64,000 nt of DNA from Nymphaea colorata. Taxonomy: Eukaryota > Streptophyta > Magnoliopsida > Nymphaeales > Nymphaeaceae. The notes under the pieces were generated by a model, which worked only from the letters and a program-made list of their open reading frames with translations, made no database searches and had not been told where the DNA came from. Where the stretch lies: positions 10,104,505 through 10,168,504 of the forward strand of contig NC_045140.1 of the NCBI RefSeq assembly GCF_008831285.2. The letters are read 5' to 3'. A program made the translations under genes and the position numbers. Positions within the stretch are counted from its first letter, which is position 1. Each line of letters begins with the position of its first letter. Shown here one piece after another: positions 23,601-59,358 of this stretch.

Positions 23601-23912
23601 AGTTTTCATTTAGCAGATCAAGCGCACATGAGTGAGAAGTGATATGAGGACAAACGAGCATTGATCTCCAAGGGCATATCAAGCTCTTCACGGGAGAGAA
23701 AGATGAGGTTTTCTCCGTTATCACAATTTATTGAACAGATGGAATAATAGCTATGCGTTTAATTGGAGTACATGGGGCCATTTGCTTCGTTACTGCTACT
23801 GTTTTTAGTGGTTTTAGGAATTCGGATGGTAGTTATATATATTGGTTTGGTATCGTTTTCAGTGAGATGCATTGGAGACAAATTATCATAACAACGCAAG
23901 TGGTGAACAAGA

Positions 23913-23935
23913 GGGTATATATATATATATATATA
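23913..23935. repeat. TA microsatellite, unit 1
   Basis: A short (TA)n tract lies downstream of the secreted-protein gene. The matching tracts at about 39,292-39,309 (unit 2) and 58,446-58,482 (unit 3) differ in length, and unit 3 is longest. Confidence 0.9.
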
Positions 23936-24203
23936 GAAGCGATCCATCAGTTGGTGCATGCCTCGCCTGTCCGCCGGATGTAGAATGTAAAAATAGTCAA
24001 ATTTCATTTCGTTTATTAAAGAAAACATACAAGAAGAATGAATCTCCATGCCAAGAACAACAACCAATTAACATCTGCAGAGATCAAGCGCGTACGTATA
24101 GGAAGCTCTCTCTCTATATAGAACGAACACGTACAAGCTAGCAATGATCTCCTACATGGTCTCTTTAATTGGATTCTAATCAATTGATGAGGGCCTACAT
24201 GTA

Positions 24204-24581
24204 TCATGCCGCTTGAGGGGGAGGGAGTCCACATGCAGTGAAAGCTGCTCTGGTGATAAAGGATGGTAAGTGGAAAACGACTTGCACAACTTCAAGGCAT
24301 GAGTGGGGAAGGGCCCTGAGCAGCTCGCATAAGGCCTGACTGGGGGTCAATCCATTCTTCTCTACGTAGTGAACCACATCGGTGACAACTGAAGGCACGG
24401 ACCTCCCACATTCATAGAGCGTGCCAAATATGCCATGCAGGAAGTCAGTAAGGGCGTTTTCAGGGTCGACTGCTGCCTGTGCCAAGGCAAGGTCCATCAG
24501 CAGCGGAGCCAACGCCAACAACACCAACACCACCACCTTCCCGCTCCTCATCTTTGAGTGAGTTTCTCTGTTGAGCTTCAC
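24204..24581 (-). CDS. Small secreted four-cysteine protein, copy 1
   Basis: A single-exon 125-aa protein of no family I recognise. Residues 11-36 form a classical signal peptide (basic MRSGK, then a hydrophobic Leu/Val run) with a likely cleavage after ALAQA, at about residue 36. The mature protein of about 89 residues is predicted mainly helical and has four cysteines at 58, 85, 95 and 117 (C-X26-C-X9-C-X21-C), which could form two disulfides. It ends in a Pro-rich tail (GLPPPQAA). The pattern does not fit the eight-cysteine lipid-transfer proteins or the CC-containing prolamin-like ECA1 proteins. The first ATG is used, though Met11 would give the same mature protein. A TATA box lies 66-73 bp upstream. 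Two other intact copies share the window. Secretion is predicted and the function is unknown. Confidence 0.75.
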   Translation of the reverse strand: MKLNRETHSKMRSGKVVVLVLLALAPLLMDLALAQAAVDPENALTDFLHGIFGTLYECGRSVPSVVTDVVHYVEKNGLTPSQALCELLRALPHSCLEVVQVVFHLPSFITRAAFTACGLPPPQAA

Positions 24582-24646
24582 ACTTAGTTTGAAGCTTTGA
24601 ACGAGTCAGCCCACAACAACTGTTCCTGGCTATTCTCCGCCAAGAC

Positions 24647-24654
24647 ATATATAT
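24647..24654 (-). promoter_or_regulatory. TATA box of secreted-protein copy 1
   Basis: TATATATA on the minus strand within CATATATATACG, 66-73 bp upstream of the ATG. It is conserved at the same distance in all three copies. It implies a 5' leader of roughly 35-45 nt. Confidence 0.65.
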
Positions 24655-24810
24655 ACGCACCCTTCGTGAACAGGAACGCCAAAATTAATGCATTTTTGTT
24701 CCTTGATTCATTAAACAGATGGATCGTAATAATATATACGTTCGTTTAATTAATTTTAGTAAATGCATGGGGCCGTTTACTAATCGTTACTACTATTTTT
24801 TTATTGTAAA

Positions 24811-25892
24811 TGCATGGGGGAAACCGGCGATGGCCCACTATATAATGAAGGACGCTTGCCATAAGCCAACTGCTGCGCTTTTTCATTTGAGAATTGTCAG
24901 GACATAATTACTGATTTATGTAGATTCTCCTCTCAGCTAAGCTAAACATTTGATTTCGTCTAAAAAGACTTAAATTCATTTGATGCCTACCTTCTAAATA
25001 TGGCCAATGCATAGGCAATCATAATAATAGACTCAGACCTGGTTAGAAATTGCTCTGGGAGCAGGAACGAGTTGTTCATGTCTGGTCAATTTTGTGCCTC
25101 CTTCATAAATCCATGATTTTTCACATGAAGCTCTTTATTCTGCTGGTTGGTGTCTTTTCATTCGGTTTCTGTTGTTTTCTCCTTTTCCTTTTTGTTTTTC
25201 GGGTGTTTACCTCGGGCTGGGGATTGTTGTGTGATGGGGCAATCCTGAGATTTAGGCTTCGGTGTGCAGTGCAGCCCTTGGAGGAGATATTCAACTATCG
25301 TCTCTTGCTGAAACAGAATTAATTTGATATTTTCAGATTAATACTTGATAGGATCTTCATGCACACGAAACTTCAACCATTGAATCTGCATCTTTTCCTT
25401 TCATGCCTACGATGTAGGAAAAGGAAGGCCTCTATCCTGCTCATCGGCGTCTTTGCCAACGCTGTCCTCCAGCATTGCATTTCTTTCCAATTTCTTCCTC
25501 TTTTCCAAAGCCTCTGAAGGCCGCCATTAAACCTTTATGCAATGCATCTGACGGCCGCTCACCTTCATTCAACACCTAGCCTCTGTTTTCCATCCTGCTC
25601 TTCGCCTTGTAGCTCCACGATTGCGGCTGCTTCAAAGCTTCAAGCCAAGGATTGAAGACGGACACCCTCAGATGTCACACTCCTCTATTTCTCTCTCTCT
25701 CCCTCCCTCCTGCAAAAGCGAACTCCGATTGGGCGCAGTCAGGTTTGGTCTTCACGATCATAGACACTTTCATCTCAGTTTTCTTGTGGGAGCTCATATG
25801 TTAATGCTTGTTGATCCAATATCAGTGGCTATTTTAGATTTTTTTTGCCAAATTGTTACAGATCCAGTGTTCATTTGCCAAACCGGAGAATG
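24811..25892. other. Shared spacer of unit 1, deleted form
   Basis: This corresponds to 10,282-12,420 in copy 0 and 40,168-41,960 in unit 2. Relative to unit 2 it lacks about 30 bp near 25,247 and about 720 bp near 25,293. No gene is recognised. Confidence 0.5.
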
Positions 25893-26005
25893 ATGAAAGG
25901 CTAATCTTCTATCAGGTGCAACAGCATCCATTAATATTTGGGTTTGTTCATTGTTGTTATGAACCTGATTATATAGATACAGGCCTGTGCATGCCACATA
26001 CTCAT
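25893..26005. repeat. LTR-like direct repeat, left copy (unit 1)
   Basis: Begins TGAAAGGCTAATCTTCTATC. The partner (26,860-26,910 plus 30,402-30,500) is split by the hAT-type element. It flanks the gypsy integrase remnant, as in copy 0 and unit 2. Confidence 0.45.
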
Positions 26006-26209
26006 AATCGGGGTTGATTCATTTAATGCTGCCTTCTGCTCATTAGTGGGTTCCATACGGATGGTTCGCTTCTCAATGGGTGTCCGTGCAATGCTCTTTA
26101 ATGCGGGGACGAACCTCATGTCTTTAGTTACCATGTTGGTTAGACCCCTGACCAAGCTCAGTCACTCGATGGGTGCGGCTCAATCTCTTGAAAAGGGACC
26201 GATCTTGCT

Positions 26210-26840
26210 TTATAATTAATTTTTCTTAGTTGAACTTGCTTTTGACTGTGCCCAGAATATTGACTGATTTCTGTTGCCCTATGGCCTTCTCCTTCTCCTT
26301 TAACCCTTGACGTGCCCCATCGCGGCCTGCTTTTGATAGACTCCCTAGTTTGGGTCTTGATATGTTCGATTGACTACTTGGACTTGTATTAGGTTCACCA
26401 TCCTTAAAGATGTCTTTTTCTCAAAGACCTCAATTAATGTGGGGATCTCATAGCCATTTCATCTTGGCCTTCCCACGATGTCCCTTTCTCTTCATCCCTT
26501 ACAGGTTTTGCGGAGGCTCCTTAGGCAGCAAGATCTAGTGGTGGGCAGCTATAAATAGCCTCAAACAGGGTCACTTGGATACCTTAGTGAAAACGGGTAT
26601 TATAGGTCCACTCTCCCCAAGATAAGTGTTGGCTCCATGTATTTGGCCTTTCACTGGAAAAGCATCTAAGGTAAGCTTCCAAGGTTCGGTTTATGACTTC
26701 TCTTTGGCCATTAGTTTGGAGTTTATTAGAACTACTAAAGTTAATCTTGGTTCCCATAAGCTTAAACTATTTCCTTTAAAAGGTACTTTGGAAAATGGTA
26801 TCTCGATCACAAGTGATACTTATGGGTGCCTTGTATAGCT
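26210..26840 (-). pseudogene. Ty3-gypsy integrase remnant, unit 1
   Basis: In decayed minus-strand frames, ISITCDRDTIFQS corresponds to the second catalytic aspartate block (DRDPIF) of gypsy integrase, and LWEPRLTLVVLINSK is the frameshifted counterpart of the MGTKI block. It is parallel to 12,730-13,262. Confidence 0.6.
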
Positions 26841-27699
26841 TGCTAGTGTTCATATGTGTGTGTGTATATATATAAGAGTGAAACACAGGGATGGGGTTGG
26901 TGGTGAAAGGTAGGGCTGCACACGAGCCGAGTCGAGCTCGAGCTTGCCTAGCTCGAGCTCGACTCGGCTCACAAGCTCGAGCTCGAACTCGAGTTGAGCT
27001 GCCTAACACAAGCTCGAGCTCGACTCGATTATACAAAGTCGAGCTCAAACTCGACTCGCTTAACTCGATTAACTCGTTTAGCGCCACATAACTCTTCTTG
27101 CTCCCATTCTTAAACCAAACCAAATTAAGTTACGATTTTTTAATTAAAAGAGCGAAAACGATGTTCCATTGGATCATCAAGATTAAGCAGAAAGCACGCA
27201 AAGCGGTTAGTTGATAGAGTGCAACTCTTTTGATTAAGAAAAAGGCTATCAAACGTCAGTTGATAGAATGCATAATCATAACTAAGCCTTTCAATTTACT
27301 ATATTGTAAAATGCCTAATCTGCTAATCGACTTCATCTTTGTTCTTGTCCTCGGTAGTAAAATAAGGTCCATAAACAGACAAAGATACGAAGCGAAAGCA
27401 CACAAAGCTCATAGGCATCTGTGGCTGCTGCAGTGTTTGATGATTAGCTTAATCATGCCTTACTAAAACGTATCAGTATTAGAAGTTCATACACTTCCAG
27501 AACCTGTTTTACATTCACTAATGGACAGAAACTGCATCAGAAACATACAAGGTCACAATATTCCATTGGTCCTAATAGGTGGACCTCAATCGAACAAAAA
27601 TGCAGAACAACAAACATCAAAAAGGGAAAATAGATATTTAAGTATCCTTTGAATTGTGATGGTATGCAAGCAGAAGACTCGAATAATGCCTAAGGAAGA

Positions 27700-28845
27700 T
27701 GCAGGGGCTAATGTCTGGAATCTGGATAGCATCGTTCCTCAACATGAAATGCCCATATACCAATACTAAGATGCCCAAGAAGCATCACTCCAAGTCTGCA
27801 ACGTCCATACAGAAAACCATCAGCCAAATGAGGCAAGTTAGGTGAAAAGAAACTGGAGTTTTAGCCACAAGTGACAAGATTACCTGAAAGGATACCAGAA
27901 AGGCATGTGATACTTTTCAGTTCCTGGAGAAAAAAAAAAAAACAAAATATCAAGGACACCAGTGGTATACTGATATGGCAAACAGTTATCAATAGTTTCC
28001 AATCTTGCAAACAAACTAATGCCACAGAACTCAGTTGATTAGATATGTCAAAGTCTGAAATTTAGTACAGTATTCAGATTACCGTGCAATGTTTACAGCG
28101 AACACGAATACACGATCAAGGCACTCCATGAGTTGCATTTCTCTTTGAAATCTATAGGAAATGCTATCTATCTAAGTAACTCTTGCCTTACTTTGTCTGA
28201 TACACAAATACACCATCAGGTCTTCTACTCTTCTTACAAAGCCATCAATGTTAGGTTGCCCAATTATTTCTCTCCACATGTCTGACAAAAAAAATTCTGA
28301 ATTGTTAAACCCAACACAACTGAAAAAAATTGCATTGCTACCCATTATGAAAGCTTTTCATAGAATGTATTAGTGTGAACAATGCAAAAAACCAAATGGA
28401 ATATTATAAACAACGATGAAGCTACAATATCTGATATTTTGTTAGTTGTTACTGCATAATATGTTTGAGATGATGTTGAATCATGTCCTGCTATCTCATC
28501 TTCAGCAGTACCCTACAAAAAAACCAACAATAATGGATCAATAAACAACTTATATGACATATAAGCACGAATATATATTATATATATAGTTCAATAGTGC
28601 ACATCAAGCTACATAGAATCAATATTGCAGACTTTCAAGAATGGCCCTGGTACTTTCTTAATTTTTTGGAAAAGGAATCATAGTCTTTACCCCATTAGTC
28701 ACATTTATTTTATCACCACACGTCAATCAGATTGACAAAATCTTCTACCGTTTGAATATCTTTTCTTTTTCTGAGGCATTAACAGCAACCCTACCATCAT
28801 ATCCAGGGAATGATGCAAAATATTCTTCTGGTATTGTAACTAATA
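27700..28845 (-). pseudogene. Exon-like cargo inside hAT element, unit 1
   Basis: Several minus-strand segments read like exons of one unrecognised gene. They are EEYFASFPGYDGRVAVNASE (about 28,840-28,750), DMWREIIGQPNIDGFVRRVE plus DLMVYLCIRQSK (about 28,284-28,189), SISYRFQREMQLMECLDRVF (about 28,170-28,090), and EKYHMPFWYPF with RLGVMLLGHLSIGIWAFHVE (about 27,925-27,735). They lie in the same strand order with AT-rich spacers that look like introns. Some contain or abut stops. This suggests gene capture. The parental gene is unidentified. Confidence 0.4.
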
Positions 28846-29258
28846 AAAACCAACTTACAAATAACTACAGCTACAGGGAACACCAAAAGCTAGAACCAAG
28901 GGTGATACAACACCATATTGAACAAACTAAACAGGCCATTAGTGGCAAAAATAGGCTTCACAAGACAGGTAAAAGCATGCCTTGTCTCAGAGAATGGGAA
29001 CACACAGAAAAGCAAAACAGCATCAGCATCGACTTACTTTGACATGTTGCCAAAAAAGGAATGGTAAGTAATACTTTTACAAGGTAAAAGATTTTATTAC
29101 AAGTGAAGAGGAAGCGCTAGCAACTATATTCTTCAGCAGAAGATACTTAAGCCTCCACATATAAATCTGAAAAACGTTTTATGTAGCAAAGACAAATGAA
29201 AAACATCTAGTGCAACTTAAATGAAGTAAAGGAATCAAAACGTACTGGATATGAAATG

Positions 29259-30130
29259 CAAGCGTTGATGGCGTCTGAGGCAACAGTGGCAAGAGAAGGC
29301 AGCAGCAGTGATTTCTTGCGGCATTTGGGCAAAATCAGTTGGGAGGATGAGGAAGAAGAAGAACAACAAGGAGAAGAAGAAAGGAAGGCTGAAGGTACCT
29401 GGCGTTAATGCGGGAGCAGGAGTCCAGCAAGAGCGAGAGGGACACGTCATACATCTGAGGCTGTGAGGCAGCAGCTAGCGGCATTTGGGCAAAATCAGTT
29501 GGGAGGAGGAAGAAGAAGAACAAGGAGAAGAAGAAAGGAAGGCTGAAGTACCTGGCCTGAAGTCGGGATCAGAAGTCCAGCAAGAGCGCGAGGGACGCGT
29601 CACGCATCTGAAGCTGTGAGGCAGCAGCAGTGATTTCTGGAGGCATTTGGGCAAAATCAGTTGGGAGGAGGAGGAAGAAGAACAACAAGGAAAAGAAGAA
29701 TAGAAGGCTGAAGGGCTACCTGCCGTGAAGGCGGGAGCAGGAGTCCAGCAAGAGCGAGAGGGACGCATCACACATATGAGGCTTTGAGGCAGCAGCAGCA
29801 TGAGAAGGGGAAAGGCGACGATGCGTCTGAGGCAGCAACGGCGAGAGAAGGCAGCAACAGTGATTTCTGGCAGGTTTCATTTGGGCAAAATGAGTTGGGA
29901 GGAGGAGGAAGAAGAAGAACTGAAGAACAACAAGGAGAAGAAAGGAAGGCCGAAGGCGTACCTGGCGTGAAGGGGAGAGCAGGAGCTGCAGCAAGAGCGA
30001 GCGCCGAGACCCGAGAGGGACCACGGTCCACAGATGCGTTTGAGGATGTGAGGCAGCAGTAGTGAGAGAAGGGGAAAGGCGACGGAAGCGTATGAGGCAG
30101 CAGCGGCAAGAGAAGGCTGCATCAGTGGTC
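29259..30130. repeat. GA-rich minisatellite in hAT element, unit 1
   Basis: Tandem imperfect units of about 160-170 bp contain the anchors GTGATTTCTGG, CATTTGGGCAAAATCAGTTG and AACAACAAGGAGAAGAAG. Period and copy number were judged by eye. Unit 2 has the same array in better-preserved form at 45,407-46,290. Confidence 0.8.
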
Positions 30131-30401
30131 GACGGAAGAGGGGAAGACAACAAGATTCAAGAGAGAGAGCAGACGGGTCACGGGAAGAAGGAAGAGTGAA
30201 GACCGAACGGCGGAAAGGGAAGAGAAAAAAAAAATTACCCTAAACCGGTGAACCGGTTCATCTAATTCAATTGATTTAAAATAATGTGTCAAGTCGAGTT
30301 TAAACGAGTCAAGTTCTTGCAACTCGAACTCGACTCGTTTATAAATGAGTCAAGCTCGAGCCGAGCTTTTGCGAGCGAGTTCGAGTCGTTGTGCAGCCCT
30401 A

Positions 30402-30899
30402 GTGGAAGGCTAATATTCTATCAGGTGCAATAGTATCCACGGATATTTGGGTTTGTTCAACCTCGTTATATGTATAGGCCTGTGCATGTCACGTACTTAA
30501 AAAAGCAGGCCAGGGACCCAATGCAAGTGGGCAATGGGTACAGTTGGCCTTTCCTCAAAGGTTGTGTACCATGCACAGCTGTGATAATTGCACATGATCT
30601 TTAAGTGCAAATAGCAGTCAGGTACCTACAGTCAGTCAGATCAAGTAGCACATCAAACAAAACTTAATTGGGAACTTGTGAATTGCTGCCTGTAGAGTTT
30701 CCAAATTTTGTGGCGCTTTAGATGCAATATCAAATGCATGCTTCTACAAAAGAAAACTATGAATAAAGGAGGCAAAAATCATTTGACATTGTTCAATTCT
30801 ATACATAGAACATATGTTCACGATGAAAGTGCTTGTTAAAATTTGATTTACAAAGATAGTAAAATAAATACAAAGGAATCAGCAGTTACACAGGAATAC
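30402..30899. other. Shared block after the hAT element, unit 1
   Basis: This is the right part of the LTR-like repeat (30,402-30,500) and a spacer with a single unit of the minisatellite that is expanded in copy 0. No gene. Confidence 0.5.
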
Positions 30900-32225
30900 A
30901 GGAGAAATTTAAAGAAAATGACCATTATCGCTCACATCACAACCGTTGCCACTCTCCACAATATTGCCACAATTTGAATTCTCAATACTGACCCTCAAAC
31001 AAAACTTGTTAATTAGGCTGGGTTTGTTTCGAAGAGCCAGAAATTCCTTTTTCCCTAATGGCTTAGTGAAGAGATCAACAAGAGAGATCAACAAGCTTTT
31101 TATGAGATTGAACATATTTTGGAATCAAACTGCCACTTGCCACCATCAATCACCCATAACGAATATCAATTTGAATGTGTTTCGACCTATTATGAAAAAA
31201 GAGGTTCTTGGTCATATATAAAGTACTTACGTTTTTACAATATAGGACATCAGGTTTCTTGATCATCACTCTAATATCTTGAACTTGAAGAAGCCAAGTC
31301 AATTCGGCAACCATAGAAGCCATAGATCAATATTTTGCCTCTGTGCTTGACGTTGACATAGTGCTTTGTTTCTTGGCTATAAGATACAATTTGTGCCAAG
31401 AAAAGTGCAATATCCAAAAGTAGTTCGCCTTGAAAATTTACAGTCTGCCCAATCGGCATTTGAAAAAGCATGTAAGTACAGAGAGCAGTAAGCGAAGAAT
31501 CCTCTTGATGAGTTGAAAGTGGCTGACAAAGCTGTCGGTATATGAGAGCTTGGGTCCAGTAATGGTCAAACATTTCCCACAAGGGACCTATATTTGGTGG
31601 CATTTTCTATTTTGCTTTCCATTGAGAGAATCAAAATCTATTTTGATGGCCATTGGTGCAGATATTGGTTTATAATCAAGCATTTTTGTTTTTCTAGAAT
31701 ATCTTGAGTGTATTTGGCTTGGCTTACAAGTCCACAAGGTGTATAAAGCACCTCAATTTCAAGGAAATATTATAGCCTCCCCACATCCTTCACCCAGAAA
31801 TTCATTTTTTAAATGCTATGAAAACTTAAAAATGAGACGAGAACTACTTCTGCTAAGCAACATGTCATCCAGGTATACAAGAAGTGTAAGGCAATCACAA
31901 CCATGGTGATAAGGGGATATAGACAGATCATATTAGTTGGAAACAGAACCATATTGTAGAAGGAAATCACATAACCTTTCGAAACAAGATCTTGAGGCTT
32001 GTTTGAAGCCGTAAAGAACCATTTTGAGTTTCGAACATGAATCGGATGTCGAGAACTCTTGAAACCTAGAGGTCGAGCCATATATATGGTTCCTTGAAGT
32101 CCTCCATGAAGATTTTTTTATATCAAATTGTCTAATTTCCCATTTTTTGATGGTGACAAGAGATAAAATGATGCGACTACTTGATGGCCTTATAAGAGGA
32201 GAAAAAGTCTCCTTGAAATCTCATT
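30900..32225 (-). pseudogene. Copia-B reverse transcriptase/RNase H remnant, unit 1
   Basis: From right to left on the minus strand: an FSPLIRPSS-like RT start, IRQFDIKK, KMVLYGFKQASRS-like, the catalytic box variant YLDDMLL (about 31,870), an SSLTALCTYMLFQMP segment, and RNase H remnants ending in NSNCGNIVESGNG (about 30,950). It is more complete at its N-terminal side than copy 0. Frameshifts and stops are frequent. Confidence 0.75.
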
Positions 32226-32244
32226 CGTGTTGAGTCAAATACCA

Positions 32245-33856
32245 TTATGTACATGAAATGATTGAGAAAAATGAAATTTCAGTTGCTTATATGTCTACCA
32301 GTGATATGGTAGTTAATACCTTAATTAGGAAATTTCAAAAGACTTATTTTCCAAGCAAGTAGCCGCATGGACCTGAGGCATTTATAAAAGGTTGCAATGG
32401 AAAAAATTCTTTAAGGAAAAGATTGACACAAACCTTTGAATGCATTAATTATTAAGTTATGTTAGACAAGCCAAATATGAAAAACTACTTAACTAAGATT
32501 GATGAAGTCCATAATAGTGGGAGCAAACTGGCTGCAGTCTCATGTACAAGTGAGAGATATTGGGTAATAGCTATGGCTCTATCCTCTTTTCACTTGTAAC
32601 TATGAAGAAGCCCACTCACAGTTACAAGATAACTTGAACTGTATTTCAAAATAAATAATTCTCATTAATGATATTTGATTTGCAAACTAGTTTCCTGATT
32701 TTTCACAATAGCCCGAACCACAAGCTGGCTTATAGGGAATCCTATGAGGTTGGCATTAGATTGCCTAGCTCCTCTTTTACAGTTGATCATCTGGTTACTC
32801 ATGTTATGGTCTCAAAGAAGCAAACCTGAAAGATACTCACCTTTCTTTCTTTCTCTCTTTCTCTCTTTTGCTCTCTTTTCTTGTTGTTGATGCTTTCAGC
32901 TACATCGCTGGAAAACTTCAGCTGTTCGGTGCACAACAAATCTCCTGTTGAGGAGGTTGAAGGACTCTAGCGTGTGATCCACTACTGAAAACCCAATACC
33001 GTTGACTTCAAACAAAATTGGAACCTATGTTTAATTTCGTTATCTATTTTTGGCTTCAACTGTTGATTGATTATGATCATGCCATTACTTTGCATAGGAA
33101 AAGAGAAAATCATGGTGATTGATGACATTGGATATGAAGAGGATGAAGGAATGATACGTCTAAAGTGTCAGTTTAGGTGCTGATAAAAGATTCTTATAGA
33201 TGTAGTTGATGTTTAGTTTTCTTCATGCAGTTTGTATAATTGCCATTCCTTTTTTATTTCTTTTGGGAACAGCCGATCGAAAAACTGCCCAATTGCTGGA
33301 CAATTAATTTTTCTTTTGGCTTGAGCTGTTGTGTATTAATGCCATTTAACTTTATTTTATCAAGATAGATGCAGAATTATAAGACTTGGGTGGAAGCCTT
33401 TCTTCACCAGCTTTAGGCACGAATTGTGGAGGAACATGTGGAGAAGTTATAAGTGCACTCTTTCTAGGGTTGTTTTAATTGGATAGGTTGTATTCTTTTT
33501 TTTTCTTTTATGATGTAACCAGAATTATCGAATATCGTTAATAGGAAAGACAGAAAAAGATGCCTACACATTGTGGTGTCTTCTTCACTTAAACCAATGA
33601 ACCAAGCCGTATCAGCAAATAATATTGCTAATATGGTTGCCATTTGCCAACAAAACTAAAAGGATGCCGTTATCAGGAAAAAAATAAAAAAACAATATGA
33701 AAGCATATCGAATTTGTCCAAAAAAAAAAAGAAGATCAGACGCTGATCTAACCTAATACTGTGGTTTTCATACGTCCTGGTTCGATGAACTCTCAAGGCT
33801 AGGTTGCAGACCAGCCAATCAAGGAAGTCTCATCAATATGTAGCAACAGTCAGGAC
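32245..33856 (+). repeat. Copia-D tail block, unit 1
   Basis: This begins with a plus-strand Copia RNase H C-terminal remnant (EMIEKNEISVAYMSTSD) and continues into sequence of unknown nature. The part up to about 33,605 is present inverted at 20,338-21,727 and directly at 48,285-49,655. It joins the oppositely oriented Copia-B remnant at about 32,235. No intact gene is seen. Confidence 0.65.
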
Positions 33857-34501: not shown

Positions 34502-34509
34502 GTACGCCC

Positions 34510-34995: not shown

Positions 34996-35252
34996 TTTGA
35001 GAGAGGATCTGAATTCCATAGTCGGTAGTGCCTTTGATATATCAGAGAATACGAATGGCAATTTTGAAATGTGCTTGAGTTGGATTTTGCATAAATTGAC
35101 TGATGAAATTTACTGAAAAAGATATCTCTGGTCGAGTGATGGTCTGGTACTGTAATGATCCAACTATGGCACGATAAAAAGTGGGATCTAGATAAGGTGA
35201 AGTATCTAGAAGATCTAACTTAGTTGCCATAGGAGTGTTCATTGGTTTGCAA

Positions 35253-38051: not shown

Positions 38052-38064
38052 GGCTCTGATACCA
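38052..38064 (-). other. Copia-A element 1 primer-binding site
   Basis: On the minus strand TGGTATCAGAGCC directly abuts the 5' LTR end at 38,065. Primer: initiator tRNA-Met. Confidence 0.9.
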
Positions 38065-48275: not shown

Positions 48276-48284
48276 TCATTCGTG

Positions 48285-49906
48285 TTGACTGAAATACCAT
48301 TATGTGCATGAAATGATTGAGAAAAATGAAATTTTAGTTGCTTATATGTCTACCAGTGATATGATAGTTAATCCCTTAATTAGGTAATTTCAAAAGACTT
48401 ATTTTCCAAGCAAGTAGCCGCATGGACCTGAGGCATTTAGAAAAGGTTGCAATGGAAAAAATTCTTTAAGGAAAACATTGACACAAACCTTTGAATGCAT
48501 TAATTATTAAGTTATGTTAGACAAGCCAAATATGAAAAACTACTTAGCTAAGATTGATGAAGTCCATAATAGTGGGAGCAAACTGGCTGCAGTCTCATGT
48601 ACAAGTGAGAGATATTGGGTAATAGCTATGGCTCTATCCTCTTTTCACTTGTAACTATGAAGAAGCCCACTCACAGTTACAAGATAACTTGAACTGTATT
48701 TCAAAATAAATAATTCTCATTAATGATATTTGATTTGCAAACTAGTTTCCTGATTTTTGACACTAGCCCGAACCACAAGCTGGCTTATTGGGAATCCTAT
48801 GAGGTTGGCATTAGATTGCCTAGCTCCTCTTTTACAGTTGATCATCTGGTTACTCATGTTATGGTCTCAAAGAAGCAAACCTGAAAGATACTCACCTTTC
48901 TTTCTTTCTCTCTTTCTCTCTTTTGCTCTCTTTTCTTGTTGTTGATGCTTTTAGCTACATCGCTGGAAAACTTCAGCTGTTCGGTGCACAACAAATCTCC
49001 TGTTGAGGAGGTTGAAGGACTCTAGCGTGTGATCCACTACTGAAAACCCAATACCGTTGACTTCAAACAAAATTGGAACCTATGTTTAATTTGGTTATCT
49101 ATTTTTGGATTCAACTGTTGATTGATTATGATCATGCCATTACTTTGCATAGGAAAAGAGAAAATCATGGTGATTGATGACATTGGATATGAAGAGGATG
49201 AAGGAATGGTACGTCTAAAGTGTCAGTTTAGGTGCTGATAAAAGATTCTTATAGATGTAGTTGATGTTTAGTTTTCTTCATGCAGTTTGTATAATTGCCA
49301 TTCCTTTTTTATTTCTTTTGGGAACAGCGAAAAATTGCCCAATTGCTGGACAATTAATTTTTCTTTTGGCTTGAGCTGTTGTGTATTAATGCCATTTAAC
49401 TTTATTTTAACAAGATAGATGCAGAATTATAAGACTTGGGTGGAAGCCTTTCTTCACCAGCTTTAGGCACGAATTGTGGAGGAACTTGTGGAGAAGTTAT
49501 AAGTGCACTCTTTCAAGGGTTGTTTTAATTGGATAGGTTGTATTCTTTTTTTCTTTTATGATGTAACCAGAATTATCAAATATCGTTAATAGGAAAGACA
49601 GAAAAAGATGCCTACACATTGTGGTGTCTTCTTCACTCAAACCAATGAACCAAGCCGTATCAGCAAATAATATTGCTAATATGGTTGCCATTTGCCAACA
49701 AAACTAAAAGGATGCCGTTATCAGGAAAATAATAAAAAAATAATATGAAAGCATATCGAATTTGTCCAAAAAAAAAAAAAGAAGATCAGATGCTAATCTA
49801 ACCTAATACTATGGTTTTCAGACGTCCTGGTTCGATGAACTCTCAAGGCTAGGTTGCAGACTAGCCAATCAAGGAAGTCTCATCAATATGTAGCAACAGT
49901 CAGGAC
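48285..49906 (+). repeat. Copia-D tail block, unit 2
   Basis: The direct counterpart of 32,245-33,856 and inverted counterpart of 20,338-21,727. No intact gene. Confidence 0.65.
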
Positions 49907-50553
49907 TAAAGAAGAAAAAGAGAACAAGAAGGAAGGAAAACCAGAATTACGTGGTTCGGTTTTTGTAAACCTACATCCACAACCAGAAAGAAAACTCTTG
50001 CTTCTTTTTCTTATTTGGTTCCATGTTCATCATTACAATATACAGAGCAGAATGAAAACTGTAGAAATCATCGTGAGAGATTTCTGAACATATTGGTTAT
50101 ATCAGTTTCTCTCTTTTCCCTAACGTTTCAGTTTAAGAAACATGAGCAAGATCTGGGTCATTATGACCTTTCTTCTTCTCTTCTCTTCTTAACGTTTCAT
50201 TTTGAGAAACGTGAGCAGGATCATTTTTGTTTCCTCCTAGCGTTGCAGGTTTAGAAGCGTGGGCCAGATCAGGAGCATTATGGCTGACACGAGATTTGCG
50301 GTTTTCATTTGCTGAGGCCATAATTGAATGACGTTGCATAGGGAGATTTTTCCTTTTGCTGTTTTCATTAAATTGAGACATTGTCATCGACTTGAGTGTT
50401 GCAGCATAAAAACTTCCATGTTTGTCTTTGCGGTTGTCGATACCATAGTTGGACGATGCAGTCGTTACAGCATTTGAACTAAGACTTCCTTTTTGGCTGG
50501 ATTGCTCATGATTGTTGTGGGCCACTTTAGGAAGATTAGAACAATTTCCTTTA
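49907..50553 (-). repeat. Copia-A element 2, 3' LTR
   Basis: 647 bp with TAAAG and CTTTA ends, matching the element 1 LTRs. Confidence 0.85.
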
Positions 50554-51060
50554 ATAAACGAAAACGGCTGATGATGTTGAGTTTGTCTCGTAAGCTAAAG
50601 AATTGTTCTTTCCCCAAGGCCTTGGTGATTATGTCTGCAATTTGGCCATGAGAATTGACGTATCTAGTGATGAGGCGTCCTAAAGTGGTCATTTCTCGCA
50701 CATAGTGATAATCGATCTGAATGTGTTTTGACCGATTGTGGAAAACTGGTTTTCTTGCTAAATAAATTGCACTAATATTATCACAATGAAGGATGGGTGC
50801 TTTTGTAATTGTAATGCCAATATCTCAAAGGATTTGAAGGAGCCAAGTCAATTCTACAACTGTAGATGCCATTGAGCAGTATTCAGCCTCAGCGCTGGAT
50901 CGAACAACAGTGGATTGCTTCTTTGCACTCCAAGAAATGCAATTAGCTCCTAGGAAGGTACAATAGCCTGTCGTGGATCTTCTGGTGAGATGATCCGCAT
51001 CGGAGAAAGCATATAGATCTAAAGTGCTTTGAGAGAGGATCTGAATTCCATAGTCGGTAG
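50554..51060 (-). pseudogene. Copia-A element 2 RNase H
   Basis: Broken RNase H with HIQIDYHYVREMTTLG-like and GQIADIITKALGKEQF motifs. A small deletion relative to element 1 lies near 50,990. Confidence 0.7.
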
Positions 51061-51073
51061 TGCCTTTGATATA

Positions 51074-52206
51074 TCAGAAAATACGCTTGGCAATTTTGAA
51101 ATGTGCTTGAGTTGGATTTTGCATAAATTGACTGATGAAATTTACTGAAAAAGATATCTCTAGTCGAGTGATGGTCAGGTACTGTAATGATCCAACTATG
51201 GTACGATAAAAATTGGGATCTGGATAAGGTGAAGTATCTAGAAGATCTAACTTAGTTGCCATAGGAGTGTTCATTGGTTTGCAATCAAGCATTTGAGCTT
51301 TCTCCAAAATGTCTTGAGCATATTTTGTTTGAGTGAGAAAGAGGCCATCATGGGTGTGCAGAACTTCGATCCCAAGAAAATAGTTTAGCTGCCCCATATC
51401 TTTCACTGGAAATTTGACTTCAAGATTGGAGATAAAATTTTGAATTAGGCTGGAAGAGCTGCCTGTAAGGACCATATCATCAACATAGATTAAGAGAATA
51501 AGACAATCACCATTTTTATGAAATGTGAACATGGATGGATCTGAATAACAACTCTGAAAACCGTAAGTGAAAAGAAAATCACTTAGTCGTTGAAACCAAG
51601 CTCTGGATGTTTGCTTAAGTCTATATAAAACTTTTCGAAGACGACAAACATGATGTGGTAGAAGAGGATCTTCAAGCCCTAGTGGTTGAGTCATATAGAC
51701 TGTTTCATGAAGCAATCCATGTAGGAAGACATTTTTGACGTCCAATTGTTTAATACTCCAATGGAAGATGGTAGCAATAGAAAGTACAAGTCGTATAGTA
51801 GTTGGTCATATGACAGGAGAGAATGTCTCTTGAATCGATTCCTTCAACTTGAGTGAAACCCCGAGCAACCAGGTGTGCCTTTAGCCGATCAAGACTTCAA
51901 TCGGGTTTGAGTTTAGATTTAAAAACCCATTTAGATCCAACGGCGTTCATGTGCGGTTCTCTTGGAACTAAATTCCATGTGTTATTAATTAGATCTCAAT
52001 GCAGTCATTTCTTCTTCCATGGCTGCTCTCCACCCATCATGATTTAGAGCTTGTTGTAGTCTTTTAGGCTCTTTTGGAATGCTGGAATAAGTGATATGAA
52101 CATTGGCGTACTTGGGATTAGGTTTGTGGATGCCCGCCATAGCTCTAGTTATCATCGTTCGGTTTCCCCGAGATGTTGTCATCGGCAAGATTTTCCCATT
52201 TGACAA
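51074..52206 (-). pseudogene. Copia-A element 2 reverse transcriptase
   Basis: A 223-codon frame (51,745-51,074) carries LLIYVDDMVLTGSS and VKDMGQLNYFLGIEVLHTHD. The N-terminal RT (52,206-51,985) is in another frame after frameshifts. Confidence 0.8.
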
Positions 52207-53750
52207 CTAGCACAAATCAAAAGAGAACCATTAGGTAAAACATCAATATATTTCTGGCTTTTTAAAAAAGAGAGAACACTAGATTGAGGATGTCCCAAAC
52301 GAGCATGCCAAGACTCTTCCGTCGCCGGCCAGAATCGTGATGAAAAGAAGGCTTTATGATTGCTGGCATTGTTCACTGCATAGAGACCGCCTTGTTCGGT
52401 TCCTGTTGCCATTATCCTACCCGTCCGCCTATCCTTTAGGATGCATTGACCAGAGATGAATTCAAAGTCATATGGAGAGTCATTAGTCAATTTGATAACA
52501 GAAATCAGATCTTTAGTGATGCGCAAAACATAGAGAACATTCTTAAGAGAAAGATTTGTGGAAATATCGGCTTGTCCAATGTGTGTGATTGGGATACGCT
52601 GTCTGTTCCCAACATTAACTGTATCGAAACCAAAATAAGGAGAAATGTTTTTAAGTTTACCTGCATCCCCTGTCATATGTGTTGTAGCTCCAGTATCAAC
52701 CAGCCAGCCGGAATCTTGCAAGTCATTAATAGTGAGTGCTGCGAGGGTTTGAATAGCATCTTCCGCTTGGAAGGAATGTTTTAAACGGTTGTAACACTTC
52801 ATGGCAGAATGATTCCTCTTGTTACAAATTTGACATATGATACCTTTGGATGAATTTGAAGAGGTTGCTGCCACATCAAATTTTGGCGGTTGAGGTGGAT
52901 TGGTGTTGTAGCTAGTCTGAGATGGGTTTGAATTATAACCTCCTCCATGAGAGGGATTAAAGTTGTATCCTCCTCCACCTCCCCATCTGTTGTGTCGTCC
53001 TCGCCCTTGTGAGAGATGGTAAGTACCCCGAGATCTGTTTTGACCTTCACGTTGAGCATAGAAGGCAACTTGGGGTGACGTATCGGAATTGAGAAATTTG
53101 TTTCTCACTTCTAAACTTTGCAGAAAGGAGACCAATTTTTTGTAAGAAGGAACTGGTGGCTTGAGCATGGCCATAATGAAAGACTAGTAGCCTTTACCCA
53201 GTCCTTGGAGAAGCCAAAAGGCTTTTTCTTTGTCTCCAACATATTTTCCTATGGCACCCAAGTCATCACATATGGCTTTAAACTTGGCGACATAGACTAC
53301 AAGGGCGTCGTTACCCTTTTTACATGTCGTAAGCATGTGAGTAAGATGAAATGCCCATTCTTGAGATTTTTGGGCTAAAGCATCAACAAGAGTGGGCCAA
53401 ATTTCTTGAGAAGAATTAAGTCCAACAACCAAACCAAGGATGTTTTGAGACAACGTACCGGTAATCCATCCTTTTATAAGATGATCCGATCGATGCCATG
53501 ATTCATATTTGGGATTTGAGACCAACTATTGCAGATCTGTATGATCGACAATATGACTTGGTGGAGCAGGGGTTGAACCTATCAGAAAACCTTCCATGTC
53601 CTGGCTTTCAATGAGGGCTAGAATTTCTGTTTTCCATAACAAAAAATTGTTGTGCATCAGCTTCAGGAAAACAAAATTAGCCACGTTCAGATTCAGTGGA
53701 TAGGGATAGAATGTGTTGAGAAATGAGGCTGCTGATGAGGAAGAGGCCAT
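52179..53750 (-). pseudogene. Copia-A element 2 gag and protease
   Basis: It starts MASSSSAASFLNTFYPYPLN at 53,750. A stop near 53,525 and another break near 53,180 interrupt it. A 331-codon frame (53,174-52,179) holds the zinc knuckle, protease site DTGATTHM and GAG-pre-integrase motif, ending at the same deletion point as element 1. Much of it is identical to element 1. Confidence 0.85.
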
Positions 53751-54093
53751 GGCATGATCACCGCCAGAAAGGTAGAAGAAAGCCAGTCGACTACTAGTCT
53801 TTCAACTCTGTTTTAGCATACATTGATGGTAACACAAGCAGACAACAGCACGAGGGGAGACCAGAACTCAAGCAATTTCGGCCTGCTTCGATCACGAATT
53901 TGGTCGAGCGAGGAACCGCTGAATTCGCAACATTGAGTAAAATATCTCAATGGGAGATTGCTCGTGCAGACAACGACAAAAAAAAAAAAAATTGAAGGGC
54001 GGTGGAAAACAGTGGCGTTGCTCTGTTTCACCTGTTCCTTGACTGATGATGCTTTGGTGGTGGTCACTGTCTCTTCTTCACAGTTATTAACCT

Positions 54094-54106
54094 GACACTG
54101 ATACCA
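54094..54106 (-). other. Copia-A element 2 primer-binding site, mutated
   Basis: The minus strand reads TGGTATCAGTGTC against TGGTATCAGAGCC in element 1. It is followed by foreign DNA instead of the LTR. Confidence 0.75.
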
Positions 54107-54849
54107 TAGGGGGTCGTTTGATGGCCTGGAAATATATTTCTGGAAATATAAGAAATGGAAAAATAGAATGGGAAAAATCTTTCCAATTCCAATTTTGGTG
54201 TGTGTGTGATGACTCAGAAATATATTTCCAATTCTATATTTCTGAGTTTGATGGTACAGAAATATATTTCCAGATTTCCAGAAAATTAATTCTTAGTTTG
54301 ATGATAAGGAAACATTTGTCCAGATTTACAAAAATTAGATAAATAACCACACCAAATACATAAATAACCGTCCATTGCGAGTCTTTTTCCTGCAAGAACA
54401 CAAATATCTGCAGTAAAGTTTGAAGAACATATCAACGCATCAAGCTCTCCAGCTTTACAACATAAAGAAGGATAACATCAAAAGCAAATAAGTAGCATGA
54501 TCCACGTCCAACATTGTGTGAATATACAAAGTCGCTTCTTGTAAACCTGAAAAAAATATGGACTTGTGATAAACAGTAATTACAGAACAAAATCAGCCCT
54601 GATATGCAACCCAGTGGAAAAAGGAAGGCTACAGGGCTATCCTATTAAGTCGAAGAAACCAAAGCAGTACACCTCCCTCAGTATCATATCGCGTATTCAA
54701 TAGTATCTCAAATACATTCAATGGAAATATGTTAATCTTGAAGGCAGTGGCTGAAGAATACGAGGGGAGCGACTGGAGTATTTGACAGAGTACTTGCAAT
54801 GGCGCTGTTGTTGATCATTGAAGCATTTAAATGGGAAGGAAAAAATGTC

Positions 54850-54926
54850 AACTTCCTCAGGATTTACAAACCCACATATATAACTCTGCTCAGAGCCTTA
54901 ACTTCCTCAGGATTTACAAACCCACA
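54850..54926. repeat. Direct repeat pair of about 26 bp
   Basis: AACTTCCTCAGGATTTACAA with CCCACA following occurs at 54,850 and again at 54,900, within the PPR-bearing insert. Confidence 0.85.
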
Positions 54927-55329
54927 AATCTTGTTGGTCATGCTTATGCTAGACCATGGGTTCAGGGCCATAACTGCCCAATTCATGCATGTGAGCTTTC
55001 TTCGCATCGTCTGTGGAAAAGAACATGCTTTAATCAGTTCCAAATCCTTCCGGAAAAAGAACAAGAGTTAAAAAGTTCCAACATATTCATAATAAATATT
55101 CACACCATAAACTGGACAATACTATCATCCACTCAAAAATGTTAAAAACTAGCATAAGCATGAGCTTCATATGGATAGTCAGCAAAGTTCAGCCAACAAT
55201 TATCCAATTTAAGGAAACATAAAACAGATATTTGCTCAATGGGTGCTATTGTAGTTGCAGATGTAGTCAGTTTTGAATAATGGCAAAATCATGGACCTTT
55301 TATTATTACTAAAACCACCTATTCTCGAA

Positions 55330-55383
55330 CATAGCCAGCCCAAACTTGAAGTCTTTCATAGCCAGCCCAAACTTGAAGTCTTT
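55330..55383. repeat. Tandem duplication of a 27-bp unit
   Basis: CATAGCCAGCCCAAACTTGA plus AGTCTTT occurs twice back to back (55,330-55,356 and 55,357-55,383). Confidence 0.9.
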
Positions 55384-56112
55384 CTTTTTTGTGTGAAAGA
55401 ACTCAGTATTCAGTTGGGTGTCTTCTCAGCCGATTCTACCCATTTGTCAGCTAAACGAAGGTTGGATCTTGCTGCAGCTAGAAGCAGTAATATCAGCCAT
55501 TTTGCAGCCACTTTGACCTGACAGGAAAAGGAGGAGACGATGGTTCCTATATTAACCAGTCATGCTTCAAACATATGCTGTATGTTTGAGTTATCTTAAA
55601 TGCATGCTGGGATGCAATCAAACCTGTAGCAAGTAGAGGTTTTGGTTACTTGAATGTGAACAGTGCAGGTGCAATTTTTACCTTTTTGAGGAAATCTGAT
55701 TTATTGTTTTTGGTTACTACTAGTGCAAAGTAAAAAAGACAGTTTCTGCAGCATTTCTGCCTGAAGCAGAAAGCCAAGAAACGACAACTACCCAACTAGT
55801 GACAAAAGCATAATGGAAGATCTAAGAAAACCCCTGACAGGCATCGAAGGGGTTATAACAAGGTATTCAAGAGATCATGAAAGAAACAGAACTCAGAACC
55901 AAGTGAAAAGATTGATGCCTAACAAAATGAAAAAGAAGTTTGACTGCATCATCTTATAGAAACAGGAATTGCAAAAAGAAATGATCATAAAATTAGAAGA
56001 GATACATGTACATGAAAAACAAAAACATTCATAAATAGCCGTTACCTGACTAGACAGAAGGGTGGCAGCCCCATAGCAGCATAAATCTCAGAGTATGATT
56101 ACCACAAGATAG

Positions 56113-56391
56113 CTACTGCTGATCCAGTACTCTGTATCTCCTATATGAATCAATCAGACGTGGGTTATATCCCTTCTGAAGCATTTCATCCATCCATACC
56201 TCAGCGTCCCTAAGCCTGCCATATCTCCGAAAACCATTTTTTAGTATGTCGTGCGTCCACATGTTGGGAGGATGTTCGCTTTCCCTCATTCTGTTTACCC
56301 AATTACAGGCATCCTCAACCTTTCCGTCTCTACAAAGAGCACGCAGCAACATGTTGTACGTGATGGTTGTTGACAGGGAAAAGGTGTTCAA
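56113..56391 (-). pseudogene. PPR protein C-terminal fragment
   Basis: A 92-codon frame holds about two pentatricopeptide repeats: ITYNMLLRALCRDGKVEDAC, then WTHDILKNGFRRYGRLRDAE with a degenerate third. It ends naturally (RVLDQQ, stop). PPR proteins are organellar RNA-binding factors and normally have many more repeats plus a targeting peptide, so this is a fragment. Just upstream (56,772-56,392) another minus-strand frame is Ser/Leu/Phe-rich and could be an unrelated first exon or targeting-like leader. Whether the fusion is transcribed cannot be told. Confidence 0.65.
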
Positions 56392-57245
56392 TTAACTCTC
56401 CCAAATTTTCCGAAAGTATTGGTAACCCCTCCCTACCATCCCCAGTAGCAAATGCACTAAATAATCGACCATTTTCTTCCGCTCGACGGGACCAAGCGGC
56501 AGGAAGGGGGGAACGATCTTGGGGAGCGTGGCAGGTGATGTATGGAGATAGAACGGGGGAGGGAGAGAGGAAGGAGGAAGGCTTCCGGCCAGTAGGGGTA
56601 GGAAGACGAGGAGAAATCCATGGCGGAGAGAGAAGGAGGAGGAGCTGCTCCGCCTGGTTGAGCGGAGCAATACCAACATGCTTTGACGCGTAGAGTCATG
56701 GGAGGAATGGAGAAAATGGTGCCAGAGGAAGCGAGATTGAAAGAGAGAGAGCGAGAAAAAAAGAGAGAACAACCGGAAAGAGATAAACAGAGAGAAATGG
56801 ATGTACCTTTCACCGGCGGCCGGCGATACATGCCCGACGCACCGAGAGTGGAAGAGAAGCCGTGGGAGAAATGAACCTCCTGCTTCACGGCGCGTGAGGA
56901 CGCAGACGCGTGAGGACGCAGAGTATGCGTTGCGTGAGGACGAAGACGAAGAGGGCTGCGTGAGGACGAAGACGAAGAGGACTGGGGCTGCGAGAGGCGA
57001 TTGAGGGAAGAGGCGATACGCGCGACCGTGCCCTAACGGTCCGTAAAAAATTTCCGGAAAATTATTTCCGTCTCTCCAGGTGGAGATTTTTTTCAGGAAA
57101 AAAATTTTGTGGAGATTTTTTTCCGGAAAAAAATTTTCGGAATCGACTTCAACGGTCGATTATTTTTTTCCGCGTTTGTTACGCAGGGAAAATTTTGAAA
57201 TTTTGAATTTTTTTTTTCGAGTAAACAGTATTTTTTCAGGCCGGA

Positions 57246-57817
57246 AAAAAGAGAACAAGGAAGAAGGAAAACCAGAATTACGTGATTCGGTTTTTGTAAA
57301 CCTACATCCACGGCCAGAAAGAAAACTCTTTCATGTTCATCATTACAATATATAGAGCAAAATGAAAACTGTAGAAATCATCGTGAGAGTCACTAACGCT
57401 TCAGTTTAAGAAACATGAACAAGATCTGGCTTATGACCTTTCTTCTTCTCTTCTCTTCTTAACGTTTCATTTTGAGAAACGTGAGTAGGATCATTTTCGT
57501 TTCCTCCTAGCGTTGCAGGTTTAGAAGCGTGGGCCAGATCAGGAGCATTATGGCTGACACGAGATTTGCAGTTTTCATTTGTTGAGGCCATAATTGAATG
57601 ATGTTGCATAGGGAGATCTTTCCTTTTGCTGTTTTCATTAAATTGAGACTTCGTCATCGACTTGAGCGTTGCAGCATAAAACTTCCATGTTTGTCTTTGC
57701 AGCTGTCGATACCATAGTAGGACGATGCCGTAGTTACAGCATTTGAACTAAGACTTCCTTTTTGGCTGGATTGCTCATGGCCACTTTAGAAAGATTAGAT
57801 TAGAACAATTTCCTTTA
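57246..57817 (-). repeat. Copia-A element 2, displaced 5' LTR
   Basis: It matches 38,065-38,692, with its first few bases replaced at the insert boundary and about 60 bp of internal deletions. The outer end is CCTTTA, followed by ATA and AGGAC. Confidence 0.8.
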
Positions 57818-58136
57818 ATAAGGACCCTGCCCTTTATGATCGTAAAAGTCAAGCAAGTGTAGCGTGCCGGCATGAGTCTGTGTCCATGCATGTTTGTGTA
57901 GCTTATGTTGCAGATACTCACCATGGCGCATTTGCTTTAACCCACTGAAGACAAATTATTGTAAAAGAGGCGTACAATGGGGTTGAAGTTTCAACCAAGC
58001 AAGATACTGAACTCAAATTATTTCCTTGTCAGATGGACTATGAAACTTAAAACCACAATTTACTTTATTAGAGAAAACATGTGTATGAAGCATGAATATC
58101 TCAATCACATGCCGTAGTGAGGAGCAACAACAAACA
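57818..58136. other. Right flank of Copia-A, start of array boundary
   Basis: Homologous to 38,693-38,977. Begins AGGACCCTGCCCTTTATGAT. No gene recognised. Confidence 0.6.
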
Positions 58137-58442
58137 CAGATCAAGCGCACATGAGTGAGAAGTGATATGAGGACAAACGAGCATTGATCTCCAAGGGCAT
58201 ATCATGCTCTTCACGGGGGAGAGAGATGAGGTTTTCTCCGTTATCACAATTTATTGAACAGATGGAATAATAGCTATGCGTTTAGTTGGAGTACATGGTC
58301 CATTTGCTTCGTTACTGCTACTGTTTTTAGTGGTTTTAGGGATTCGGATGGTAGTTATATATATTGCTTTGGTATCGTTTTCAGTGAGATGCATTGGAGA
58401 CAAATTATCATAACAACGCAAGTGGTGAACAAGAGGGCTGAA

Positions 58443-58445
<3 letters not shown>

Positions 58446-58482
<37 letters not shown>
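58446..58482. repeat. TA microsatellite, unit 3
   Basis: About 18 TA dinucleotides, the longest of the three parallel tracts. Confidence 0.9.
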
Positions 58483-58484
<2 letters not shown>

Positions 58485-58751
58485 TGCGATCCATCAGTTG
58501 GTGCATGCCTCGCCTGTCCGCCGGATGTAGAATGTAAAAATAGTCAAATTTCATTTCGTTTTATTAAAGAAAACGTACAAGAAGAATGAATCTCCATGCC
58601 AAGAACAACAACCAATTAACATCTGTAGAGATCAAGCGCGCACGTATAGGAAGCTCTCTCTCTACATAGAACGAACACGTACAAGCTAGCAATGATATCC
58701 TTCATGGTCTCTTTAATTGGATTCTAATCAATTGATGAGGGCCTATATGTA

Positions 58752-59129
58752 TCATGCCGCTTGAGGGGGAGGGAGTCCACATGCAGTGAAAGCTGCTCTG
58801 GTGATAAACGATGGTAAGTGGAAAACGACTTGCACAACTTCAAGGCATGAGTGGGGAAGGGCCCTGAGCAGCTCGCATAAGGCCTGACTGGGGGTCAATC
58901 CATTCTTCTCTACGTAGTGAACCACATCGGTGACAACTGAAGGCACGGACCTCCCACATTCATAGAGCGTGCCAAATATGCCATGCAGGAAGTCGGTAAG
59001 GGCGTTTTCAGGGTCGACTGCTGCCTGTGCCAAGGCAAGGTCCATCAGCAGCGGAGCCAACACCAACAACACCAACACCACCACCTTCCCGCTCCTCATC
59101 TTTGAGTGAGTTTCTCTGTTGAGCTTCAC
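58752..59129 (-). CDS. Small secreted four-cysteine protein, copy 3
   Basis: The 125-aa third paralogue, intact. It differs from copy 1 only at residue 23 (Val for Ala) and from copy 2 at residues 32 and 124. Several third-position differences from the other copies (for example near 58,809 and 58,994) leave the protein unchanged. Signal peptide to about residue 36, four cysteines at 58, 85, 95 and 117. TATATATA at 59,202-59,195. Downstream sequence matches the other units, but upstream of 59,358 the promoter-distal DNA is unique, so its regulation could differ. Confidence 0.75.
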   Translation of the reverse strand: MKLNRETHSKMRSGKVVVLVLLVLAPLLMDLALAQAAVDPENALTDFLHGIFGTLYECGRSVPSVVTDVVHYVEKNGLTPSQALCELLRALPHSCLEVVQVVFHLPSFITRAAFTACGLPPPQAA

Positions 59130-59194
59130 GCTTAGTTTGAAGCTTTGAACGAGTCAGCCCACAACAATTGTGCCTGGCTATTCTCCGCCATGAC

Positions 59195-59202
59195 ATATAT
59201 AT
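59195..59202 (-). promoter_or_regulatory. TATA box of secreted-protein copy 3
   Basis: TATATATA on the minus strand, 66-73 bp upstream of the ATG. Confidence 0.65.
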
Positions 59203-59358
59203 ACGCACCCTTCGTGAACAGGAACGCCAAAATTAATGCATTTTTGTTCCTTGATTCATTAAACAGATGGATCGTAATAATATATACGTTTGTTTAATTA
59301 ATTTTAGTAAATGCATGGGGCCGTTTACTAATTGTTACTGCTATTTTTTTATTGTAAA

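Follow-up and report, generated by a model that had tools for sequence, protein, structure and literature searches.

Three intact gene copies in the window

The DNA analyzed here, referred to as the window, is a 64,000-nucleotide stretch of the Nymphaea colorata genome (C3:10104505–10168504) that contains three intact copies of a single-exon gene for a predicted secreted protein with four cysteines. The genome comprises 407,766,735 bases in 783 contigs, and C1–C7 are used throughout as contig labels. Self-comparison of the window revealed a tandem array with a unit of approximately 15 kb. The gene copies lie inside the copied blocks of this array, all on the minus strand, at 24204–24551 (copy 1), 39561–39908 (copy 2), and 58752–59099 (copy 3), and each consists of 115 codons plus a stop codon.

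An earlier note on this DNA had described the three intact frames, and these were found, but it gave the protein a length of 125 aa. The actual length is 115 aa because the open frame that precedes the ATG, LVQSFKLSVKLNRETHSK, contains no methionine, and there is no in-frame ATG further upstream. The variable residues were previously numbered 23, 32, and 124, each of which is ten too high: compared with copy 1, copy 2 carries A13V, A22V, and A114E, and copy 3 carries A13V. In the mature part, the copies differ at just one residue, which is changed in a single copy. Among the three copies, three nonsynonymous and three synonymous sites vary in all, and the synonymous changes fall in the mature part, as the note had reported (codons 35, 97, and 111). 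The cysteine spacing, C-x26-C-x9-C-x21-C, also agrees with the earlier description and is formed by C48, C75, C85, and C107. The N terminus is hydrophobic, as judged by eye from the sequence, and may be a signal peptide. A TATA-like box, TATATATAT, is located approximately 100 bases upstream of the copy 1 ATG (24647–24655, minus strand), in accordance with the TATA box noted before, and an AATAAA at 24012–24017 (minus strand) could serve as the polyadenylation signal of this copy.

The gene family and its reading frame

Relatives of the window protein were gathered by genome searches in which the window protein was the first query and the members found were used as later queries. At least 19 intact, single-exon family members were recovered (eight on C7, six on C3, three on C1, and one each on C2 and C6), and in the genomic sequence each of the 19 reads as intronless, running in a single open frame from its ATG to its stop codon. 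The six C3 genes form two subfamilies: the three window copies and three 126-aa sister forms near 9594550, 10174101, and 10181655, which are likewise near-identical to one another. All six C3 copies are open and contain the four cysteines, and a family remnant is present at C3:10202207–10202600. The proximal promoter, including the TATA box, is recognizable in both subfamilies, and GCGTATATA of the copy 1 box recurs in the sister forms when upstream regions are aligned. In a tree built from two homologs of the egg-cell protein EC1 and 18 family proteins, the window and sister forms group together (100/99) on a long branch inside the family; the inner order is unsure, since several forks there are open and long branches come together. 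A DNA search with a 687-base piece that spans the copy 1 3′ flank and the gene end retrieved just the three copies and a 92–96-base piece on C3, and literature searches brought up no report of this four-cysteine family. The window genes belong to a genuine, frame-conserved gene family.

Several features of individual members were also observed. The C7 members fall into two groups approximately 220 kb apart, at 4640442–4668873 and 4891026–4893328 (L033, L007–L010, L024, and L028), and some of them are arranged head to head. One C1 member (L035:502–960) ends in a long stretch of Ser-Pro repeats and carries a fifth cysteine as its last residue; presumably, a tail of this kind would suit a protein of the wall or surface. 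The sister-form coding sequences at C3:9594550 and 10181655 are identical despite being 0.59 Mb apart, whereas the 400 bases upstream of the 9594550 copy are 98% identical to the 10174101 copy and 78% identical to the coding twin at 10181655. This mismatch between upstream and coding regions hints at gene conversion.

The ratio of nonsynonymous to synonymous change (omega) was estimated pairwise by codon likelihood, alongside a counting method, with paralogs within the genome as comparison partners. The earlier note had named a dN/dS near 1 against orthologs as a result that would refute its reading. Against the nearest paralogs, the sister forms, omega was 1.48 for the whole protein (p = 0.17 against 1) and 1.29 for the mature part (p = 0.42), with counting estimates for the mature part of 1.04–1.32 (P(dN>dS), 0.17–0.49), but the start, the frame, and the four cysteines are kept. 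Positive selection on the window clade was considered but is not shown by these values, as 1.48 does not differ from 1. Nine other pairs were examined by likelihood: values of 0.14–0.28 were obtained for four (p < 0.001), another four (0.69–1.33) did not differ from 1, and the ninth was saturated (0.02 at t = 10). Clear purifying selection was detected for the pair C7a–C7b (omega 0.23, p = 5e-6; 0.21–0.33 by counting). The four pairs indistinguishable from 1 were C7e–C7f (1.33) and C7b–C7c, C7a–C7d, and C7e–C7g (0.69–0.72), so fast change is not confined to the window clade. For C1a–C6a, the two methods conflict (0.26 by likelihood versus 0.81–1.03 by counting). Only some of the family thus shows clear constraint.

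The window and sister proteins share 36 of 91 residues in the mature part and 14 of 24 in the leader, and, at 115 and 126 aa, they do not have a stop codon in common. We simulated neutral change to the synonymous distance observed between them, without indels, in 10,000 runs. Both frames remained free of stops in 216 runs; both starts were also retained in 51, and the four cysteines as well in a single run. A first simulation (0.125%–0.175% of 4,000 runs, dropping to zero once frameshifts were added at 5% or 10% of substitutions) was discarded because it required an identical stop, which is not true of the real pair. Retention of the start, frame, and four cysteines, set against its rarity in the neutral runs, therefore indicates that the frame was kept by selection while the residues turned over quickly. 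To that extent, the earlier description of a secreted-type cysteine protein with its frame kept inside a transposon-rich tandem duplication holds as a reading.

The divergence among the three window copies is less telling. So few nonsynonymous changes would arise by chance with P = 0.17; neutrality is not rejected, and the comparison has little power. Codons 25–113 contain no nonsynonymous change among three changes (P = 0.016), although this is a post hoc count. In each of the three copy pairs, divergence is lower in the coding sequence than in the 3′ flank (P = 0.0002, 0.010, and 0.030), a difference that is not seen against the 5′ flank (P = 0.46, 0.11, and 0.75).

Likeness to EC1 proteins and competing origins

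Prolamin_like proteins (PF05617), which include EC1 and ECA1 and correspond to the CRP3600/DUF1278 group of Arabidopsis, are characterized by six conserved cysteines and intronless genes in the account of PMC8702097. The family described here is alike in that its genes are small, single exon, and multicopy and encode a hydrophobic N terminus. A genome search with PF05617 (cut-off, 22 bits) returned 10 matches, six of them above the cut-off. The EC1-like set used for comparison, chosen after reading the frames, consists of the homologs L036 and L037 (66.8 and 63.2 bits) and a broken third locus, L038, alone. Two further pieces may be EC1 pseudogenes: one at C4:26726426–26726635 with an internal stop (E = 4e-25) and a weak one at C3:23272756–23273099 that is split over frames (E = 0.03–0.57).

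Both EC1 homologs have the arrangement C-x9-C-x18-CC-x9-C-x21-C, whereas the 15 distinct family members examined follow C-x25–27-C-x8/9-C-x21-C, with one member that ends with 19. The four aligned cysteines are present in all 15, two of which carry one extra. The middle spacing is 9 in 11 members and 8 in the other four, and the last is 21 in 14 of 15. In the window and sister clade, the last three cysteines are spaced at 9 and 21, matching the C-x9-C-x21-C of this genome's EC1 homologs. The gap between the first two cysteines differs, with 25–27 residues in the family and 29 between the first and fourth cysteines of EC1. From this spacing, the family would have the first, fourth, fifth, and sixth EC1 cysteines and would lack the second and third, which pair as one disulfide in the eight-cysteine fold of the superfamily.

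Similarity may extend beyond the cysteines. A profile of the mature family scored the two EC1 homologs at 12.3 and 9.5 bits, and none of 500 shuffles with the cysteines fixed reached either score (maxima, 10.7 and 8.7 bits). Two controls, labeled by our own reading, scored lower: a CC-motif protein (lipid transfer protein [LTP]-like) at 6.6 bits (reached by 6/500 shuffles) and a CLC-motif protein (DIR1-like) at 3.0 bits (25/500). The two profiles were also run against 654 open reading frames (ORFs), each 60 aa or longer, taken from the window and the collected loci. The best non-member for the family profile was the EC1 homolog L036 (E = 0.0085), and the four best hits of the EC1 profile after the three EC1 rows were all C7 family members (E = 0.0022–0.14).

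Other results weigh against an EC1 origin. The family has four cysteines instead of six, and neither a CC nor a CW motif is present. None of the 19 members matched PF05617 at E up to 10, and the 10 genomic matches to that profile include no family member. Genome searches did not connect the two groups in either direction: an EC1 protein as query retrieved no family member, and five family proteins as queries retrieved no EC1. The family profile ranked an unrelated ORF (E = 0.082) just ahead of L037 (E = 0.083). The EC1 profile placed the window copies at ranks 50–54 and the sister form at 83–93 of 529 (E = 20–40), and C1a only at rank 340. Only the C7 members are reached well by the EC1 profile, and the link to EC1 thus passes through them. 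When the family was aligned with the two EC1 homologs by hhalign, the probability was 8% (local) or 3% (global), with E values of 0.004–0.005 for one comparison. Structure prediction was of little help: the AlphaFold model, built from the three near-identical window proteins, is all helical with five helices but poor (mean predicted local distance difference test score, 63.8), and a Foldseek search of the PDB with this model reached E ≤ 0.001 for none of its 28 matches (E up to 10). The omega of the window clade, which is not above 1 by test, adds to these points. Formal PF05617 membership was rejected, as there is no profile match and the four conserved cysteines fall short of the six required.

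Searches for other relatives gave no clear assignment. Pfam searches at E up to 10 with 19 members, including the three window proteins, produced chance matches alone (best, a DREV methyltransferase at E = 0.057). At the sequence level, neither one window protein nor an 11-member profile found anything in the PDB below E = 0.23, and an EC1 homolog as query found no solved relative (best E = 0.99). In VIA-align, the window-protein model gave Z ≥ 2 with 47 of 136 chains, and the top scores (best, 3.8) belonged to designed and unrelated helical proteins. The fold searches with this poor model singled out no prolamin-like entry, which does not count as evidence against a prolamin-like fold. Nonspecific LTPs (nsLTPs) and 2S albumins of the prolamin superfamily are helical, disulfide-bonded, and secreted; the 2S albumin Ara h 2 (8g4p_E) appeared at rank 21 in the VIA-align listing (Z = 2.5; root-mean-square deviation, 3.5 over 59 residues), which is not telling. 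The nsLTP motif has eight cysteines with CC and CXC. The family, with four or five cysteines and neither CC nor CXC, was therefore rejected as a member of this class, and the LTP-like control scored below the EC1 homologs by the family profile. RALF, defensin-like, and other plant cysteine-rich peptides are small, secreted, and encoded by multigene families, as would apply here, but these peptides have other cysteine spacings, and no member had a Pfam match to such families at E up to 10. The earlier statement that the protein is unassigned thus stands with regard to Pfam and is partly answered by its relatives in the genome and by the EC1-like cysteine spacing and weak profile similarity.

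At the level of the family, descent from EC1-type proteins is, on balance, probable from these comparisons. We propose, tentatively and with slightly less than even confidence, that the gene family would be a disulfide-depleted branch of the secreted prolamin-like proteins (EC1/ECA1), with a probable role in reproduction. An EC1/ECA1-type ancestor would have lost the one disulfide formed by the second and third of its six cysteines. After removal of the signal peptide, the product would be a compact, mostly helical protein of approximately 91 residues with two disulfides that acts outside the cell. The window clade represents a rapidly changing branch whose copies arose by tandem duplication of the 15-kb unit.

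Among the roles offered in the earlier note, the EC1-like spacing and the weak profile similarity lean toward reproduction. EC1 is described as specific to flowering plants and as secreted by the egg cell at sperm arrival, which makes sperm competent for fusion (PMC12069490). By analogy with these relatives, the most likely role would be that of a short-range flower protein that is produced in the female gametophyte or pistil, or next to them, and takes part in the recognition of gametes or pollen tubes; defense of this tissue against microbes may be a second option. The published parallel for an intronless, duplicated family is the Arabidopsis CRP3600 group, for which PMC3422182 reports genes without introns, with one exception, and 32 of 57 in a tandem SAT5 repeat block. 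The same source describes many CRP3600 promoters as active in egg or synergid cells (CRP4 in synergids) and the studied genes as carrying transposon-like methylation in leaves, and the ECA1 group is put at 124 Arabidopsis genes in PMC8585777. A bolder form of the proposal, that this plant has built a separate four-cysteine, EC1-like fertilization branch without the disulfide between the second and third cysteines, whose clades diversify fast and spread by transposon-rich tandem duplication, would be rather unlikely on present evidence. If true, fast diversification is what would be expected where egg apparatus and pollen compete over species recognition. The existence of a family with the EC1 spacing minus one disulfide that Pfam misses would show the EC1 group to be broader and more variable than its annotation implies, and the 19 genes provide a set for asking whether gamete-recognition proteins diversify via transposon-rich duplication.

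It is also possible, if somewhat doubtful, that this is an independent secreted cysteine family, e.g., antimicrobial, whose likeness to EC1 arose by convergence on a helical two-disulfide frame. Such an origin would agree with the lack of Pfam matches, the weak profile scores to EC1 (8–12 bits), and the low ranks of the window copies with the EC1 profile, and quick change is usual in defense proteins too. Convergence accounts less readily for spacings of 9 and 21 exactly as in EC1, for similarity beyond the cysteines that no shuffle reached for either EC1 homolog, or for the reciprocal ranking of EC1 and the C7 members, and two cysteines are absent, the number that the loss of one disulfide would require.

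The remaining alternatives concern the window copies themselves. They may be recent passengers of transposon-rich duplication that are now unconstrained and becoming pseudogenes, for which the window-clade omega near 1, the unrejected neutrality of the six variable sites, the lack of a coding deficit relative to the 5′ flank, and the remnant on C3 would speak. This is quite unlikely given that all six C3 copies are open with four cysteines, that every copy pair shows lower divergence in the coding sequence than in the 3′ flank, that start and frame survived the older split in only 51 of 10,000 neutral runs, and that a proximal promoter with a TATA box is recognizable in both subfamilies. Dosage amplification, in which copies are kept since more secreted protein is beneficial, would fit the near-identity of the mature parts and the three near-identical sister copies; recent duplication alone yields such identity, and we consider dosage a slim prospect. 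An EC1-type origin followed by loss of one disulfide remains our preferred explanation of the family.

The array and its surroundings

The duplicated block around copy 1 (23614–25295) is 94.3% identical to 38978–40687, and its part 23614–24810 is 95.7% identical to the third gene block (58137–59358), which is preceded by a long terminal repeat (LTR)-like repeat at 57246–57821. The rest of unit 1 (25292–38066) matches unit 2 at 41374–47001 (93.3%) and 46999–54108 (95.9%). Unit 1 contains a decayed Copia LTR element on the minus strand (33857–38697) with LTR-like repeats at 33857–34505 and 38065–38697 that are 91.8% alike; adjoining the latter is TGGTATCAGAG, which we take to be primer-site-like. 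The duplicate element in unit 2 (49907–57821, minus strand) includes the LTR-like repeat at 57246–57821, which lies 3.1 kb past position 54108, where the copied internal part stops. At 10278–15015 there are older pieces of the unit, with ten matches of 83.7%–99.1% and one of 67.1%, and genome searches with the 687-base piece and the window protein listed no gene copy there.

The array contains 37 open frames of at least 110 aa, 34 of them besides the gene copies, and eight of these 34 were scanned with Pfam. Six, from both units, are fragments of a Copia polyprotein (gag, Pol_BBD/pre-integrase, and reverse transcriptase) scattered over different frames, in accordance, for these six, with the earlier claim that other coding regions of the array are broken; the other two had no Pfam match. 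Because the repeats differ by 4%–7% and the window contains no N, a simple assembly echo is unlikely as the source of the array. It is an ordinary tandem duplication of a 15-kb unit with a dead Copia element in transposon-rich DNA, and unequal exchange between repeats would probably have copied the unit.

Three neighboring features were observed. A 354-aa open frame at 45369–46430 (minus strand) has internally repeated Ser/Pro/Arg-rich stretches and no Pfam match, and its counterpart in unit 1 (29478–30239) contains shorter frames only, up to 146 aa. Frames at 16142–19687 (plus strand) resemble the remains of another Copia-type polyprotein; the sole part scanned, 17023–17745, contains an integrase core and an SH3-like domain. 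Finally, 3981–5967 (minus strand) probably contains exons of a WDHD1/Ctf4-like WD40 gene, which would be an ordinary cellular neighbor of the array; the scanned part, 3981–5111, matched PF24817 with 212 bits.

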